Assembly: GCA_947503525.1 (NCBI GenBank)
Contig: CANNEA010000007.1
Span: forward strand, 62,001-126,000
Length of the DNA: 64,000 nt
Direction of reading: 5' to 3'
Origin: an uncultured Carboxylicivirga sp.
GTDB lineage: Bacteria; Bacteroidota; Bacteroidia; Bacteroidales; Marinilabiliaceae
In this document: one piece after another, positions 7,453 through 61,184 of the stretch
Numbering within the stretch: the stretch's first letter is position 1
How the letters are laid out: each line of letters starts with the position of its first letter
Program-made: the position numbers and the translations under genes
Notes under the pieces: generated by a model
Told to the model about the DNA's origin: nothing
What the model saw: only the letters and a program-made list of their open reading frames with translations
Databases searched by the model: none

Positions 7453-9018
7453 CTAGTCAATAGTAAATGTTATAGACCCTAGTTTTCTTGTTCGTCCGTC
7501 AGGGCCAACGGCTCTAATATCTTCAATGAGAACACGGTTACCACGTGCAACTCCTTTTATCAATGTTTCCTGAGCTTCAGTAAACTTATTACTCTTAGAT
7601 GGTTCACTTACAAAGAAACCTTTTCTATTGGTAGCTACCGAAAACTGCGTTACTTTAAATTTTAAATCAAAGTCAAAATCTTCACCCATTTCAGCAATGA
7701 CATAACCAGCAGCCACCAGAAGGTTTTTACGTATTTTACCTTCATTTTTACCGGCTATCATGGCCACAGGATTTGGCACTCGCTTAATACGAAATTCCTG
7801 ACTTCCTAAACGACGATTCTTACCATTAATTTCAGCAGAGACCGTAATGATAGATTTTCCGCCTGCTTGTCCCGATCGAGGTTTTACAATGTATTCACTA
7901 CCTTTTTTGCGGAAAGTAGCATTTGTCATATTCACTTTGAGTTGACTACCTGCAACACCCGGCACTGAAATCTCCACAGGATTATCCAAGGCCTCGTAGA
8001 ACACATTCATTTTAGTTGGTGATATTACCACATTTGGTTGAATCACTTCATACTCATGTCTAATATTACGAGTTTGTCTCGCTCCATTAGGATCTTTAAA
8101 TACAATCTGACCATTCCAGGTCTTTTTACCTAGCGAAGTAGCCGGAATTCGTAATTCCCCTCTACCGTTTTCAAGTACATTAATTGTATGACCAGGTACA
8201 TTATACTCCGGATACTGCAAGGTATCCGTAGCAGCTAATAATATTTGAGCATAATACTCACCACCTTTAAATACATAATTCGAACGTGGTATTACAATCT
8301 CTTCAACTTTATTAAATTTATAAGAGCCTTCATCAACCTTACTCAACAAATAACTAATTACATCAGCCTGACCTGTTCGGACATTACTTTGTATACTACT
8401 CAGTAATGCAAATGAAGCTGATAAAGGTAAATGCTCAAACTTTTGACTTTCCCATGATACAGGTACCTGACCCTTTCGAGAAGGTGCTGCCGCTTCAGTT
8501 GATAAACTTTCTGTAATCGAATTTATCATTACAGTATCTTTGGGATCCAAATGTGAAATCAGCAATTCCTTATAATCTTTCAATGCAGCTTTAAGCTCTT
8601 CGCTTCGTTTCCCTGCTTGCTCAGTTATCATTACTTGAGCAGCTATATCTTGGTTATCAGCTCCTTTAAAGTTAGTTGTCGTCGCTTCAGGACTACTGTC
8701 AGCTATGCGCATCATTCGATGCTTTAAGCTGTCAATCGCATTATACAATGAATCAGCTTGAGCTACAATACTTTTGGCCTTATCGTGACTTTCCTTTACT
8801 TTTTTAGGATTGGTTAACTCCGCTGCCGCAAAATTAGCCAACAATTGATCATTTTTATTATCAACCGTCTTAGTAGACTCTTGAATACTTTTATCCACCA
8901 ACTGAAAAGCTTGAAGTAACTCTCCTGATACGTTCAATGCTAACATTGCCGTAAGGAAGAGATACATCATTCCAATCATTTTCTGCCTGGGGGTTTCGGG
9001 ACAGTTTCCGCCACTCAT
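7453..9018 (-). CDS. gldM: Gliding motility / type IX secretion motor protein GldM
   Basis: Inner-membrane protein with a long periplasmic arm that forms the proton-driven rotary motor of type IX secretion together with GldL. The start MSGGNCPETPRQKMIGMMYLF places the single transmembrane helix near residues 13-34, as in known GldM. The remaining roughly 480 residues are periplasmic and beta-rich, consistent with the D1-D4 arm that reaches the GldK/N ring. It is preceded by gldL with a 40-bp gap and followed by gldN with an 18-bp gap. Confidence 0.96.
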   Translation of the reverse strand: MSGGNCPETPRQKMIGMMYLFLTAMLALNVSGELLQAFQLVDKSIQESTKTVDNKNDQLLANFAAAELTNPKKVKESHDKAKSIVAQADSLYNAIDSLKHRMMRIADSSPEATTTNFKGADNQDIAAQVMITEQAGKRSEELKAALKDYKELLISHLDPKDTVMINSITESLSTEAAAPSRKGQVPVSWESQKFEHLPLSASFALLSSIQSNVRTGQADVISYLLSKVDEGSYKFNKVEEIVIPRSNYVFKGGEYYAQILLAATDTLQYPEYNVPGHTINVLENGRGELRIPATSLGKKTWNGQIVFKDPNGARQTRNIRHEYEVIQPNVVISPTKMNVFYEALDNPVEISVPGVAGSQLKVNMTNATFRKKGSEYIVKPRSGQAGGKSIITVSAEINGKNRRLGSQEFRIKRVPNPVAMIAGKNEGKIRKNLLVAAGYVIAEMGEDFDFDLKFKVTQFSVATNRKGFFVSEPSKSNKFTEAQETLIKGVARGNRVLIEDIRAVGPDGRTRKLGSITFTID

Positions 9019-56695: not shown

Positions 56696-58876
56696 CTAGA
56701 AGCTTACAATAGTAATTTCTTCAAAGGCCATTTTGTAAAGCGTGCTGCTATTGAGAACTTGTGCATGCGTTCCATTAGCTGTAATAGTATTGTTTTCGAT
56801 AACATAAATAGTATCGGCATGCCTTGCTAGTTGCGGTCGATGAGTAACAAGTAGAATAAGCATTTTATTCCTAAGTTGATTTAATAAATTAATGACAAAA
56901 TGTTCCGTTTTGCGATCCATTGCTGCAGTAGGTTCATCCAGCAATAATACCTGAGGTTTGGAATATAAGGCACGCGCCAAAGCAATCAATTGAAGCTGAC
57001 CACCCGATAAATTGGTAGCATTCTCGTTAATTAGTGTTGCATAACCTTGTTGTAATTGCTTAAAAAAATTATCAAACCCATATTTTCTGCAAAAAGCTTC
57101 CATTTGTTTGTAGTTGGGATTTTCAGACAAAGTAATATTTTCGAGTAAAGTTGCATTAAATAATTTAACATGTTGTTCAACAACAGCAACGTGCTGCCGC
57201 CAATGTCTAACACCAATGTGTTGCCAATTTTGCCCATTCACACATATGTTTCCAGATTCAATATTATGAAGGTGTTGAATTATACTTAACAATGTACTTT
57301 TGCCACAACCAATCTCACCATAGAGGCTTGTAATTTTCCCTTTTTCAAGTGACAGACTAATGTTTTTAAGTAATAAAGATTTTCCTGGAAATCGGAAATT
57401 TAGCTTATCAATAGTTAGCGTCTGCATATTTATTAACTCAACATTTGTGTCCATATTATCCTCAACACATTCTGGATCAGCGCTTGCAAACTCGAACATA
57501 CGTTCAAATGCTATCTTTGCTTCTTGCAGTTGAATATTAGCCAAGGCTATTTGTATTACAGCAGCTGTCATACTGCTTGTTAAAGTGATAATGGCCATTA
57601 GTTGTCCAACTTGAAGCTGATTGCTTAACACCAAATTAGCAGCCCATGCGATAATCCCAAGCAGCAATAGAGAGTTAACAATACTTACCCACCAGCCAAG
57701 TTTAGCACTTAGAACTCCCAGTTGATAAACACCATCTAAAAATAAATGGTAAATAGACTTCACTGTTTTTCCCAATAAGATTTCGAGGTTATTGGTTTTT
57801 ATGGTATCTATATTATTAATGGTGTCTATGTATTTACTCTCCGTAATGGCATAATTCTTCATCACTTTTTGTTGCCCTTTGATAATATTATTATTAAAAT
57901 ACAAAGTGATTAAACCAAACAAAGGAATAGCCATTAGACTAATAAAACCTGTAGATGTTGAATATACAAAGATGTATGAAACCGATGCGATAGCAACTAA
58001 GGCATCAATAATTAATTCACTACTCAGATAAACCACAACCTTTTGTATTCGACGAACATCGTTTAAGCGGGCCACCATATCTCCTGTGGAAGTGCTGTTG
58101 AAAAAGGATTTAGGTAAGAATAATAATTTACCGAAAAATGACGACACCATGCGACTGTTCATATCACGACCTTGTCGTTGCAAAAAAACATTTCGTAAAT
58201 AGCTGATTGATGAGTGAGCCAATAAAATCATTCCAAATACTATTAGGCCTAGTATAAGCATCCTGGTATCTTTACCAGGTAAAAAATTATCAATCAATTT
58301 TTGCGAAAAGATGGCTGTAGCCAATCCTAAAATAGAAAGAACAATACCAAGGAAGCCTGCAATTGCTAAAACAGGGTAATCATCTTTTAATAGGTTCAAA
58401 AACCATTTACGTTGATTAATTCGATGTTTCTGAGTGGTTATAAATTTATCGCCTCGTTTCAATGTTAATAAAGCGCCACTTTTCCAGATTTTTCCTAAAT
58501 CATCCTCCGAATACTGTATAATTCCATGACTCGGATCTCCAATTACAAAGGTGTTATCGGTAAATGCATAGCAAACAATAAAGTGTTCACTTTTATCATC
58601 CTTAACAACATGTAAGATGACCGGATAATTCTGTTTTTTCAAGGTGCTCATGTCGGCTTGATACCCTTTAGCTTCTAATCCCAAATGTTGAGCTGATTGG
58701 TATAAGCCAAGTAATGATGTGCCATTTAGTGTTGTGCCACTACTCTCACGTAACTTATCTTGCGTAGTATTTCCACCATAGTATTTGATAATGGATGTTA
58801 GACAGGCTAAACCACAGTAATACTGACTGTGTTGTTTTGTAAATGAGCGCTCAATCAGCTTAAAATTAGGCTTCAT
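56696..58876 (-). CDS. C39 peptidase-containing ABC exporter (PCAT)
   Basis: Cleaves double-glycine leaders and exports the peptide. The N-terminal C39 peptidase shows YYCGLACL with catalytic Cys at residue 21, the His in EHFIVCYA near 98 and the Asp in GDPSHGI near 114. Six transmembrane helices follow (about 165-430), then an ABC domain with Walker A GEIGCGKST near 520, LSGGQLQL near 625 and LLLDEPTAAMD near 645. At 726 residues it is full length. It is the last gene of the bacteriocin operon, downstream of the thioredoxin by 18 bp. Confidence 0.93.
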   Translation of the reverse strand: MKPNFKLIERSFTKQHSQYYCGLACLTSIIKYYGGNTTQDKLRESSGTTLNGTSLLGLYQSAQHLGLEAKGYQADMSTLKKQNYPVILHVVKDDKSEHFIVCYAFTDNTFVIGDPSHGIIQYSEDDLGKIWKSGALLTLKRGDKFITTQKHRINQRKWFLNLLKDDYPVLAIAGFLGIVLSILGLATAIFSQKLIDNFLPGKDTRMLILGLIVFGMILLAHSSISYLRNVFLQRQGRDMNSRMVSSFFGKLLFLPKSFFNSTSTGDMVARLNDVRRIQKVVVYLSSELIIDALVAIASVSYIFVYSTSTGFISLMAIPLFGLITLYFNNNIIKGQQKVMKNYAITESKYIDTINNIDTIKTNNLEILLGKTVKSIYHLFLDGVYQLGVLSAKLGWWVSIVNSLLLLGIIAWAANLVLSNQLQVGQLMAIITLTSSMTAAVIQIALANIQLQEAKIAFERMFEFASADPECVEDNMDTNVELINMQTLTIDKLNFRFPGKSLLLKNISLSLEKGKITSLYGEIGCGKSTLLSIIQHLHNIESGNICVNGQNWQHIGVRHWRQHVAVVEQHVKLFNATLLENITLSENPNYKQMEAFCRKYGFDNFFKQLQQGYATLINENATNLSGGQLQLIALARALYSKPQVLLLDEPTAAMDRKTEHFVINLLNQLRNKMLILLVTHRPQLARHADTIYVIENNTITANGTHAQVLNSSTLYKMAFEEITIVSF

Positions 58877-58894: not shown

Positions 58895-59410
58895 TCAGGG
58901 TAAAGAAGCCATGATAGCTTCAGGCTTAGTTTCTCCTAAATATTTGTTTTGTAATTGTCTTTTGCTATCATAGATAAAAACGGATGGTACCATCGAAGTT
59001 CCAAATGTTTTATAAAACACATCTCTTTTATCAATCAATATATCTATGGCTTCCAAATCCCATAACTTGTAATTCTCAGCAAACAGATTAACCTGTTCAA
59101 AGGAATTGTCATTTGTAATCATTAATAATTGTGTATTGATAAGTGCTTCTCTATTTAAGCGTAGTGCTTGCGCTTCGTATTGGCAATGTTCGCATTCAGG
59201 ATGAAAATAGATAATTAGTATTGGTTTGCCTTTATAATCATGCAAATTAACCACCTCATTACTAAGGCTGATAAACTGTCCATTTGGTAATTCTTGAATG
59301 TTAACTTCAATTTCCTTTTTATTAGAATAGGAAACGACGACTTTATAAACACCATAGCCAATTATGGTTAGTAGCAATAGGCGAAGAATAAGTTTAACCT
59401 GATGCTTCAT
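58895..59410 (-). CDS. Membrane-tethered thioredoxin-like protein (TlpA family)
   Basis: A 171-residue redox protein anchored by an N-terminal helix (about residues 7-26). The redox motif is HPECEHC with Cys at 73 and 76, and the cis-Pro is in SMVPSVFIY near residue 142. It is an AhpC/TSA-like fold facing the periplasm. Placement between the exporter and the membrane protein suggests it forms or reshuffles the disulfide expected in the two-Cys bacteriocin-like peptide encoded upstream; that is inference. Confidence 0.85.
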   Translation of the reverse strand: MKHQVKLILRLLLLTIIGYGVYKVVVSYSNKKEIEVNIQELPNGQFISLSNEVVNLHDYKGKPILIIYFHPECEHCQYEAQALRLNREALINTQLLMITNDNSFEQVNLFAENYKLWDLEAIDILIDKRDVFYKTFGTSMVPSVFIYDSKRQLQNKYLGETKPEAIMASLP

Positions 59411-59411
59411 T

Positions 59412-60086
59412 TTATCCTAGATTTAGGCTAACAAACATTACCAACAACACCCAGATTAAAAGACCACTACCATAGGATGACACAACCAATTGCAGTGATC
59501 TACCATAATTGATTGGTTGTAGTTCTTTAGACTCTTTTATAGCAATACTCAAAAACAACGCTAATATAAAGATGTACAATAATTCAAAAGCATTAAGTAA
59601 GCTTAATGGATAAACGAAGACAGGATCTATTGAACTAGTTTTAAACAGGGAAAAGATCGAAAGGGGAGTATATGTTAAGTCATGTAGAGATGAAACGTTT
59701 TTGTATAGAACTAATACAGCCATTTTAAACACTCCTGATATAATGTAAATAAAATCGGCTATTAGGGCGACTTTAATAATTTTTTTAAACTCTAGTTTAA
59801 TTTCAAAGAAATAAGTACCAATATACAGAAGAATGGATGTAAAAAAGATCCTGGTCATTAAAATAAGAGGAACGAGAACTATTCCGATCCAAGCATACTT
59901 CTGGCTTAACTCAAAAATAGTATCAATTCTACCAAAAGATAACTGTTCTGAGAACGTGTTATAATACAATTGTTTATTTACAAATAAATAGTCAATTGAT
60001 AGCTTTAAAGCTAAAGCAAGGATGATTAAATAAATAAAGAGCTCACACCCTTTTATATGACCGAATCCTTTATTTTTAACAGTCAT
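59412..60086 (-). CDS. Hypothetical multi-pass membrane protein in the bacteriocin operon
   Basis: About 225 residues with five hydrophobic segments. I choose the ATG at 60086, because the extra three codons to 60095 begin with TTG. It has no recognisable motif. It sits 1 bp before the thioredoxin gene and about 100 bp after the small membrane protein, always in the same direction as the exporter. A role in immunity or peptide maturation is suggested only by position. Confidence 0.65.
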   Translation of the reverse strand: MTVKNKGFGHIKGCELFIYLIILALALKLSIDYLFVNKQLYYNTFSEQLSFGRIDTIFELSQKYAWIGIVLVPLILMTRIFFTSILLYIGTYFFEIKLEFKKIIKVALIADFIYIISGVFKMAVLVLYKNVSSLHDLTYTPLSIFSLFKTSSIDPVFVYPLSLLNAFELLYIFILALFLSIAIKESKELQPINYGRSLQLVVSSYGSGLLIWVLLVMFVSLNLG

Positions 60087-60188
60087 AATTTGCAATTAAC
60101 ATACCATACCTTAATCCCGTAGAATCTATTTTTTACAATCATAAATGAATTAAATAGTTTCTTATCCTCTGCTCACTCAGGTTAAAAA

Positions 60189-60533
60189 TCAGTTGAATAT
60201 CTTATTCCTTATGGCAACTATAGCAATTGAAATTATGGAAATAGCTATAACGCCGATCCACTGCAAATCACCTTCATTCATGATAGAATACCAAATTACA
60301 GACAGGATTATTGCCAAAAGAAAAAAAATAAATAATTCTTTGGTGAGTTTTTTATTTGATTTGATGTTTTTTCTCTCTTTAATCCAAACACCGATTATAC
60401 CACCGATTGTACAACCAAGCCATGCCATAGCCATTGAAATAAAAGTACTATTACCATAGCCATATGCTAAAATAAACAGAACGATTGCTATGACTAACAT
60501 GAAAGAGGATTTGTATAATAATGTATTTTTCAT
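60189..60533 (-). CDS. Small membrane protein, candidate immunity factor
   Basis: A 114-residue protein with four hydrophobic helices and a basic loop (KERKNIKSNKK) in the middle. It lies immediately downstream of the bacteriocin-like precursor gene, the classical position of a class II immunity gene. Size and topology fit such a role, but no family is recognised. Confidence 0.6.
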   Translation of the reverse strand: MKNTLLYKSSFMLVIAIVLFILAYGYGNSTFISMAMAWLGCTIGGIIGVWIKERKNIKSNKKLTKELFIFFLLAIILSVIWYSIMNEGDLQWIGVIAISIISIAIVAIRNKIFN

Positions 60534-60626: not shown

Positions 60627-60818
60627 TTAATCACAGACATAGGCCGTTAAACCACCCCATGCGAGACCAACAACGGCAGCTCCAATGCCACCAGTAGCAA
60701 TTCCTGCCATGCCAGCCCAGAACACCCCTACAGCTGTCATACCTATATTACACGACCAATAAGCGTAATCACCCCCGCCATTTAATTGTTCCATTTGATC
60801 AAAGTTTAATTCTTTCAT
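60627..60818 (-). CDS. Double-glycine-leader bacteriocin-like precursor peptide
   Basis: A 63-residue precursor. The leader MKELNFDQMEQLNGG ends in the double-glycine site at 14-15 and contains the hydrophobic positions used for C39 recognition. The mature part (about 48 residues) is Gly/Ala-rich and hydrophobic with several GxxxG motifs (residues 39-43 and 51-55) and Cys at 23 and 62, which could form one disulfide. It shares no obvious motif with pediocin-like peptides. The C39 exporter, thioredoxin and two membrane proteins downstream complete a class II bacteriocin-type locus. Confidence 0.85.
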   Translation of the reverse strand: MKELNFDQMEQLNGGGDYAYWSCNIGMTAVGVFWAGMAGIATGGIGAAVVGLAWGGLTAYVCD

Positions 60819-60855: not shown

Positions 60856-60886
60856 TCAATTTATGTTGGAGCTAAAAGTTTGTCAA
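60856..60886 (-). promoter_or_regulatory. Weak promoter for the bacteriocin-like gene
   Basis: On the minus strand TTG (60886-60884), a 20-bp spacer and TAAATTGA (60863-60856) resemble a poor -33/-7 pair. The weakness fits a promoter needing an activator; the phased repeats lie about 25 bp upstream of the TTG. Confidence 0.35.
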
Positions 60887-60905: not shown

Positions 60906-60989
60906 ACGTGAGCGTTAAGAATTCTTGAATAAGCGTGAATAATTTAGGCTTAAGCGTAAAGAAATTGAGCTTAAGCGTTATAAAGGATG
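60906..60989 (-). promoter_or_regulatory. Four direct repeats with exact 21-bp spacing upstream of the bacteriocin gene
   Basis: AGCGT occurs at 60911, 60932, 60953 and 60974, exactly 21 bp apart each time. Read on the minus strand (the strand of the peptide gene) the units are ACGCTTAAG, ACGCTTAAG, ACGCTTATT and ACGCTCACG, each followed by 12 bp. Such 9-bp direct repeats with 12-bp spacing are the binding layout of LytTR-domain regulators of bacteriocin operons. The surroundings, to 61184, hold several more AAGC-type fragments but no further copy in phase. Confidence 0.7.
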
Positions 60990-61184
60990 TGGCAAAAAAG
61001 TAAAGAATAAGCTTAGGTGTTTTAAGCCTGCCTAAGTTTTAATACTAACCCCATTTAATTTTTAGAAGCCTGGGACCTTTCATAAGCTTGCCGAAAGATA
61101 TTTAGGTTATTTTAAGCGCCTTGATAATACTTAAGAATTGCGCTGTAAAGCGAAAGAATAGAACTAATGCAAGCTTAAGTAATT

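Follow-up and report, generated by a model that had tools for sequence, protein, structure and literature searches.

A four-unit, 21-bp repeat array upstream of a bacteriocin-like operon in Carboxylicivirga: a likely LytTR-type operator and its candidate regulator

The locus considered here raises the question of why one short element recurs four times, with a strictly constant step, immediately before a bacteriocin-like operon of an uncultured Carboxylicivirga sp. The window, by which we mean the whole stretch of 64,000 nucleotides that was analysed, carries AGCGT on the plus strand at 60911, 60932, 60953 and 60974, and a recount bore out these four positions and the 21-bp step of the original prediction. 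When spacings from 12 to 60 bp were tested, AGCGT was the sole 5-mer of the 64-kb window with four constant-step copies, and 60 simulated 64-kb sequences (order-2 Markov) gave no four-copy array in 2940 spacing tests. The best period score of the window (n=4, k=7, periods 15-40) belongs to the same array, which is also called by Tandem Repeats Finder (60930-60978, period 21). On the coding (minus) strand, the array consists of four 9-mers separated by 12-bp gaps: the distal unit 1, AACGCTTAA (60971-60979, 11.9 bits with a matrix made from LytTR-gene arrays only), unit 2, TACGCTTAA (60950-60958, 21 bp from unit 1, 11.9 bits), unit 3, CACGCTTAT (60929-60937, 21 bp from unit 2, 8.4 bits) and the promoter-proximal unit 4, AACGCTCAC (60908-60916, 13.1 bits). 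The core had been described as ACGCTTA throughout; this holds for three units, and the promoter-proximal one reads ACGCTCA. A possible decayed extra unit on the same strand, AACACCTAA (61013-61021, a weak 5.9 bits), lies two periods upstream of unit 1, and the position between the two scores -9.9 bits.

The operon that follows is encoded on the minus strand. Its first gene encodes a 63-aa peptide (60627-60818) whose double-glycine leader contains MKELNFDQMEQLNGG; its match to the family profile PF10439 reaches 18.3 bits, below the required cut-off of 27.1, and it is probably bacteriocin-like, judging by leader and context. Both elements by which a class II bacteriocin is recognised, the GG leader peptide and a peptidase-containing (C39) ABC exporter, are present in the operon, the latter as a 726-aa protein (56696-58876; PF03412, E=9.6e-36, with ABC domains). 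Between them are encoded a 114-aa membrane protein (60189-60533), a candidate immunity protein whose position in the orthologous locus described below is taken by a similar gene, a 227-aa membrane protein of unknown role (59412-60095) with no Pfam match, and a 171-aa thioredoxin-like protein (58895-59410; PF00578, E=1.2e-9). Promoters of Bacteroidota have a -33/-7 form, and examples of it are printed in Table 3 of PMC6193735. Here, the TTG of a weak -33 element (60884-60886, minus strand) begins 30 bp from the first base of unit 4, which leaves a gap of 21 bp between unit and TTG, and the -7 element TAAATTG (60857-60863, minus strand) begins 53 bp from the same base. LytTR-type operators are recognised by a 9-bp direct repeat with a 12-bp gap (11-13 allowed) and by their position just upstream of the promoter core; the window array has this repeat and this position.

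A scan of genome contigs with the exporter gave five relatives, one of them close: a locus of Marinilabiliaceae bacterium A049 (L027), with an exporter 72% identical and the same gene order. The 63-aa peptide itself was searched in samples of 393 (order) and 395 (phylum) genomes. In the A049 array, three units follow at steps of exactly 21 bp (locus positions 7893, 7914 and 7935), reading ACACTCA, ACACTCA and ACGCTCA. A 20-nt stretch containing the promoter-proximal unit is identical in the two loci; since the remaining units and the gaps differ and the 21-bp step is nevertheless exact, the phase has been kept while the letters drifted. A more distal CCCCTCA lies 22 bp away and scores -8.2. 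Alignment of orthologous upstream regions, which had been put forward as a check, thus recovered three phased units, whereas the four copies are not conserved. The operons L068, L069 and L111, of the same type but more distantly related, contain no motif pair for any spacing from 15 to 27 bp. The idea that such arrays are general to bacteriocin exporters was tried and rejected: scanned with the matrix of LytTR-gene arrays, 620 kb around 34 exporter and 3 leader-peptide loci contained one pair at 21 bp, two at 20 bp and two at 22 bp, three of these five lying within exporter genes and none, by coordinates, directly upstream of a leader-like ORF.

The original prediction had proposed, as a check, to look for a LytTR regulator nearby in the genome; none lies near the array, the nearest LytTR gene on the contig being about 92 kb away. 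The genome of the window (G000) has 21 LytTR genes. A unit matrix built from the window and A049 arrays (four units being taken from the latter, CCCCTCA among them) was run on 984 kb of sequence from the window genome, a figure that counts overlapping loci. The best 21-bp pair outside the window (20.7 bits, locus L014) was found at the stop codon of one of these genes, the runners-up scoring 17.8 at 21 bp and 18.3 at both 20 and 22 bp. This gene, here called LytTR-A, is a standalone 111-aa LytTR gene on another contig than the array (G000:C1:1020913-1021245, minus strand; PF04397, E=3.4e-18). Among 71 family genomes, orthologs at 60-62% identity occur in G007, G009 and G019, the next match being at 38%. 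All four genes terminate AAC GCT TA[AG], which is the first unit of a three-unit 21-bp array, so that in all four genomes the stop codon lies inside unit 1; the 12-bp gaps vary. The arrays read AACGCTTAA/TACGCTCAA/CACGCTCAG in G000, AACGCTTAA/CACACTTAA/TACGCTCAC in G007, AACGCTTAG/AACACTCAC/TACGTTCAC in G019 and AACGCTTAA/TACACTTAG/TACACTCAC in G009. A period score blind to the motif picks out the array of G000 alone: in G007 and G009 other periods score equally well, and in G019 the array falls outside the top three. The LytTR-A arrays therefore rest on the motif and on its position at the stop codon. Considering motif and period together, LytTR-A is the probable cognate regulator of the window array. 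Downstream of the gene, the order is array, terminator-like hairpin and large many-TM gene. Upstream of it, TGTTACGWTT was seen by eye shortly before a TTTTG box in all four genomes (L175-L178), as a single half-site-like element at LytTR-A's own promoter.

A 21-bp period would also be left by a decayed coding repeat of seven residues, or by a minisatellite, without regulatory role. One open minus-strand frame does run through the window array and another through that of A049, heptapeptide-coding 21-bp arrays exist in relatives (L267, L268 and L269), and intergenic 21-bp arrays with other motifs occur. However, no minus-strand ORF of at least 40 aa with a start crosses the window array, 14 of the 16 invariant columns in a seven-row alignment of the arrays fall inside units, the units drift while the phase holds, and each LytTR-A array has a gene's stop codon within its first unit. 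We regard this origin as very improbable.

The link between the two kinds of array was also approached from the regulator side. Model R1 matches the arrays by construction, and evidence was drawn from R3 alone, a sequence-only model built from the four LytTR-A arrays only and run on 14 genomes of the genus. Its top non-training match was the window array (G000:C7:122897-122957, E=4.1e-7 per genome, or ~6e-6 for 14) and its second the A049 array (G007:C88:23870-23925, E=7.4e-4 per genome, ~0.01 for 14). The third was at G012:C129:147278 (E=0.0097). At that place (147283-147339, L237), three LytTR-consensus-like 21-bp units, AACGCTTAT, ACCACTTAT and ACCGCTTAT, precede a 237-aa gene, and the site may be an operator of another LytTR protein of that genome. 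Because the R3 scan scores only 150 candidates per genome, it may overlook weak arrays. Run on 877 kb from the window genome, the matrix of LytTR-gene arrays found nine pairs at spacing 21 (three at training loci, three in the window array) versus none or one at each of 12 other spacings. LytTR-A is present in four of the 14 genomes of the genus and the exporter ortholog in two, both among these four (chance probability of this nesting, 0.066); the other two, G009 and G019, have neither an exporter match above ~30% identity nor, in the R3 scan, a bacteriocin array.

With 21 LytTR genes in the genome, the array might be bound by one of the other 20 LytTR proteins instead of LytTR-A, for example by a peptide-sensing response regulator of the LytS/LytR type. 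A kinase gene beside the LytTR gene is the classical wiring of bacteriocin control, and 13 of the 21 LytTR genes have a neighbour of 332-361 aa, in some cases truncated where the locus ends, that is predicted to have 3-4 membrane segments and is kinase-like by inference only. Against this, LytTR-A is the only one among the 21 that has the same motif at its own gene, and with the LytTR-A matrix the stop-codon region stayed below 17 in all 41 other LytTR genes from G000 and G007. We hold a regulator other than LytTR-A to be unlikely.

Standalone LytTR genes of the genus were also compared with published operators. All 11 standalone proteins scanned match PF04397, and their profile matches AgrA structures at ~1e-4 and 3d6w (methyl-accepting/DNA response regulator) at 1.6e-7; the LytTR-A sequence alone had no PDB match at 0.01. 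Asn68 and Arg95, invariant across the 11 proteins, align in the profile match with AgrA residues that we take to be N201 and R233, which contact DNA. S. mutans-type systems have 9-bp repeats mostly 12 bp apart (PMC6193735, in excerpt). The published LRS consensus fits the stop-codon arrays of L267 (ACCGCTTAT/ACCGTTTAT/ACCGCTTAT) and L268 (ACCGCTTAT/ACCGCTTAT/ACCGCTCAA), as well as a ACCACTTAT-12-ACCACTTAT pair at +121 in the window genome (L021/L065). A literature-only matrix, made from the published LRS repeats, was scanned from -20 to +260 of the stop codon at spacings of 20-22. Seven of the 15 standalone LytTR genes of the genus scored at least 19.9 and eight reached 15; the four LytTR-A genes, included in the 15, all stay below 19.5, one of them (L177) being the eighth gene with a 20-bp pair at 16.9. 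At spacings of 16-18 and 24-26, the top score was 13.7. In G000 and G007 together, none of the 41 other LytTR genes reached 15, either downstream or in the 300 bp upstream, and none of eight standalone LytTR genes from other genera had a pair (best 11.6). Fisher's test for 7/15 versus 0/41 gives 2.8e-5, a value that overstates the difference and is indicative only, as the 19.5-bit line was drawn post hoc and several of the seven genes are related. In the window, the AGCGT array is the best 21-bp triple with this matrix, at 10.8 bits, and other spacings score up to 17.0; by eye, its units agree with ACCRCTTAY at seven of nine positions at most. These moderate scores are due to the second base, A and not C, and the published LytTR consensus by itself fails to single out the window array. 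The LytTR reading, originally drawn from geometry, has thus gained from comparative genomics (LytTR-A and its three orthologs share motif and period, and other genes of the genus fit the published repeat), but its limits are that no LytTR gene adjoins the array, that the four copies are not conserved and that the published consensus alone does not pick the array out.

The arrays, their phase, their link with LytTR genes and the promoter spacing are read directly from the sequence. Counted from where the proximal unit begins, TAnnTT[TG] starts at +50 to +53 in nine of 11 array loci, the window included; the exceptions are L269 and the A049 locus, the latter having by eye the -7-like TAATTTAT at +53, the same offset as in the window. 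The LytTR-A locus of G000 has the motif at two further offsets. By a hand estimate made without shuffling, about 2% of random stretches of 64% A+T would have TAnnTT[TG] in those four positions, and more if richer in A+T. We infer, as the likely reading, that the window array is a multi-copy LytTR operator at which LytTR-A binds and activates the bacteriocin operon. LytTR-A, which has no receiver domain, would contact the 9-bp units on a single side of the helix, one every two turns and the nearest to the promoter beginning 53 bp before the -7 box. It would recruit or hold RNA polymerase at a poor -33 promoter and so switch on the operon, presumably in response to a signal acting on LytTR-A.

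The array could also be a repressor or architectural site, occupied by a CoxC-like LytTR protein or another two-turn oligomer that silences the promoter. Such a role is compatible with binding by LytTR-A, and we think it improbable. The -33 element is poor here, which is a trait of activator-dependent promoters. Repression by a LytTR protein is seen with CoxC, which binds three repeats; its sites overlap the -35 box (excerpts of PMC11347149), whereas in the window a 21-bp gap lies between unit 4 and the -33 TTG.

Activation by LytTR-A would have close counterparts. The operators of S. mutans HdrR/BrsR (LRS) likewise lie immediately before a promoter and consist of 9-bp direct repeats with 12 bp between them and the core CRCTTA; they too have a bacteriocin target and a further operator at the regulator locus (PMC6193735, in excerpt). 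The present system differs in having four (or three) units where those have two, in the A at the second base, in its Bacteroidota promoter, in the placing of the operator at the regulator gene's 3' end, and in the lack at LytTR-A of the small membrane inhibitor gene that, by the LRS criterion, directly follows the regulator in one operon. The operators of RcoM1 and CoxC share three evenly spaced LytTR repeats at about two-turn intervals, but their motif is TTNNNGCN, they are tied to CO sensing and CoxC represses (excerpts of PMC11347149). Within Bacteroidia, LRS-like operons of Bacteroides also have LytTR repeats upstream of a -33/-7 promoter; these are 11-bp repeats with 11-bp gaps (22-bp period) and a membrane-bound regulator, bacteriocin being unmentioned in the excerpts of PMC6193735 (section 9). 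In the literature searched, with subscription journals mostly outside it, no paper was found that describes a LytTR-controlled bacteriocin in Bacteroidota, and the parts of PMC8895600 consulted contain nothing on it. The window array adds a variant to a known kind of operator, and not a new kind of system. If the proposed activation is true, bacteriocin control by LytTR proteins, known from Gram-positive bacteria, extends to Bacteroidota, with LytTR-A and the bacteriocin promoter as a directly testable candidate pair of regulator and target.

LytTR-A would also bind its own three-unit array, which starts within the stop codon of the gene, and would there activate a short transcript with a conserved hairpin at its end. 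In all four genomes (L014/L175, L176, L177 and L178), the array is followed by a -7-like box and then by ~100 nt that end in this hairpin, which has a predicted 12-pair stem and a conserved pyrimidine-rich loop. Two of the 12 pairs vary, one of them changed on both sides, and with so few varying pairs the support from covariation is thin. Model R2 finds the four copies in 71 family genomes at E ≤1.3e-17, the next match being at 0.0018, and Rfam gave no match at the hairpin and two weak matches elsewhere in the loci. The predicted transcript is a candidate small RNA; the hairpin may also be merely the terminator of LytTR-A.

The AgrA P2/P3 and RNAIII system of Staphylococcus also combines a LytTR protein, direct repeats two turns apart and a regulatory RNA transcribed beside the regulator. 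The RNA beside LytTR-A is a prediction, and no receiver domain, kinase or autoinducer gene was seen there. We give about even chances to a small Bacteroidota regulon of this kind, lacking receiver, kinase and autoinducer: one LytTR protein of a single domain would drive a conserved small RNA from the array at its own stop codon and a bacteriocin from the four-unit array on another contig.

The placing of an operator array at the end of the regulator's own gene is a recurring design, usable to find LytTR operators in the genus. Other periodic arrays were met in the same searches. At the strictest setting, 21 is the commonest intergenic period, with three matches including the window array (42 has two, others at most one). 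A single universal class of 21-bp arrays was rejected: arrays with other motifs exist, some of them coding for heptapeptides, and no motif shared with the window was seen. Briefly, 21-bp arrays with open heptapeptide frames (AQSISPx-like, KExxxPx) lie ~200-640 bp 3' of standalone LytTR genes at L267, L268 and L269, possibly in the transcript from a LytTR-type promoter. In the window genome (C7, ~281.8 kb; L065:9809-9985), a 21-bp series of nine TTGAGGA-like boxes, interrupted by stops in each of the six frames, follows directly 3' of an ACCACTTAT-12-ACCACTTAT promoter and so falls within the 5' UTR predicted for a 219-aa gene, whose protein looks helical by eye. At L082:12661-13010 and L096:13044-13300, genes of 218-226 aa adjoin long arrays of 21-bp period in intergenic DNA, whose motifs are different (ATTATTT, GATAAAATGA) and which have stops in every frame read; further intergenic stretches of 21-bp periodicity occur in the same genome as the window at L139:15586-15710 and L147:19592-19800. 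Finally, L180/L260 (G018:C77), L093 and L100 have palindromic repeats with a 22-bp period (CCGATAACTATCGG; AAAGGTTTAACCC-like), which do not resemble the window motif.
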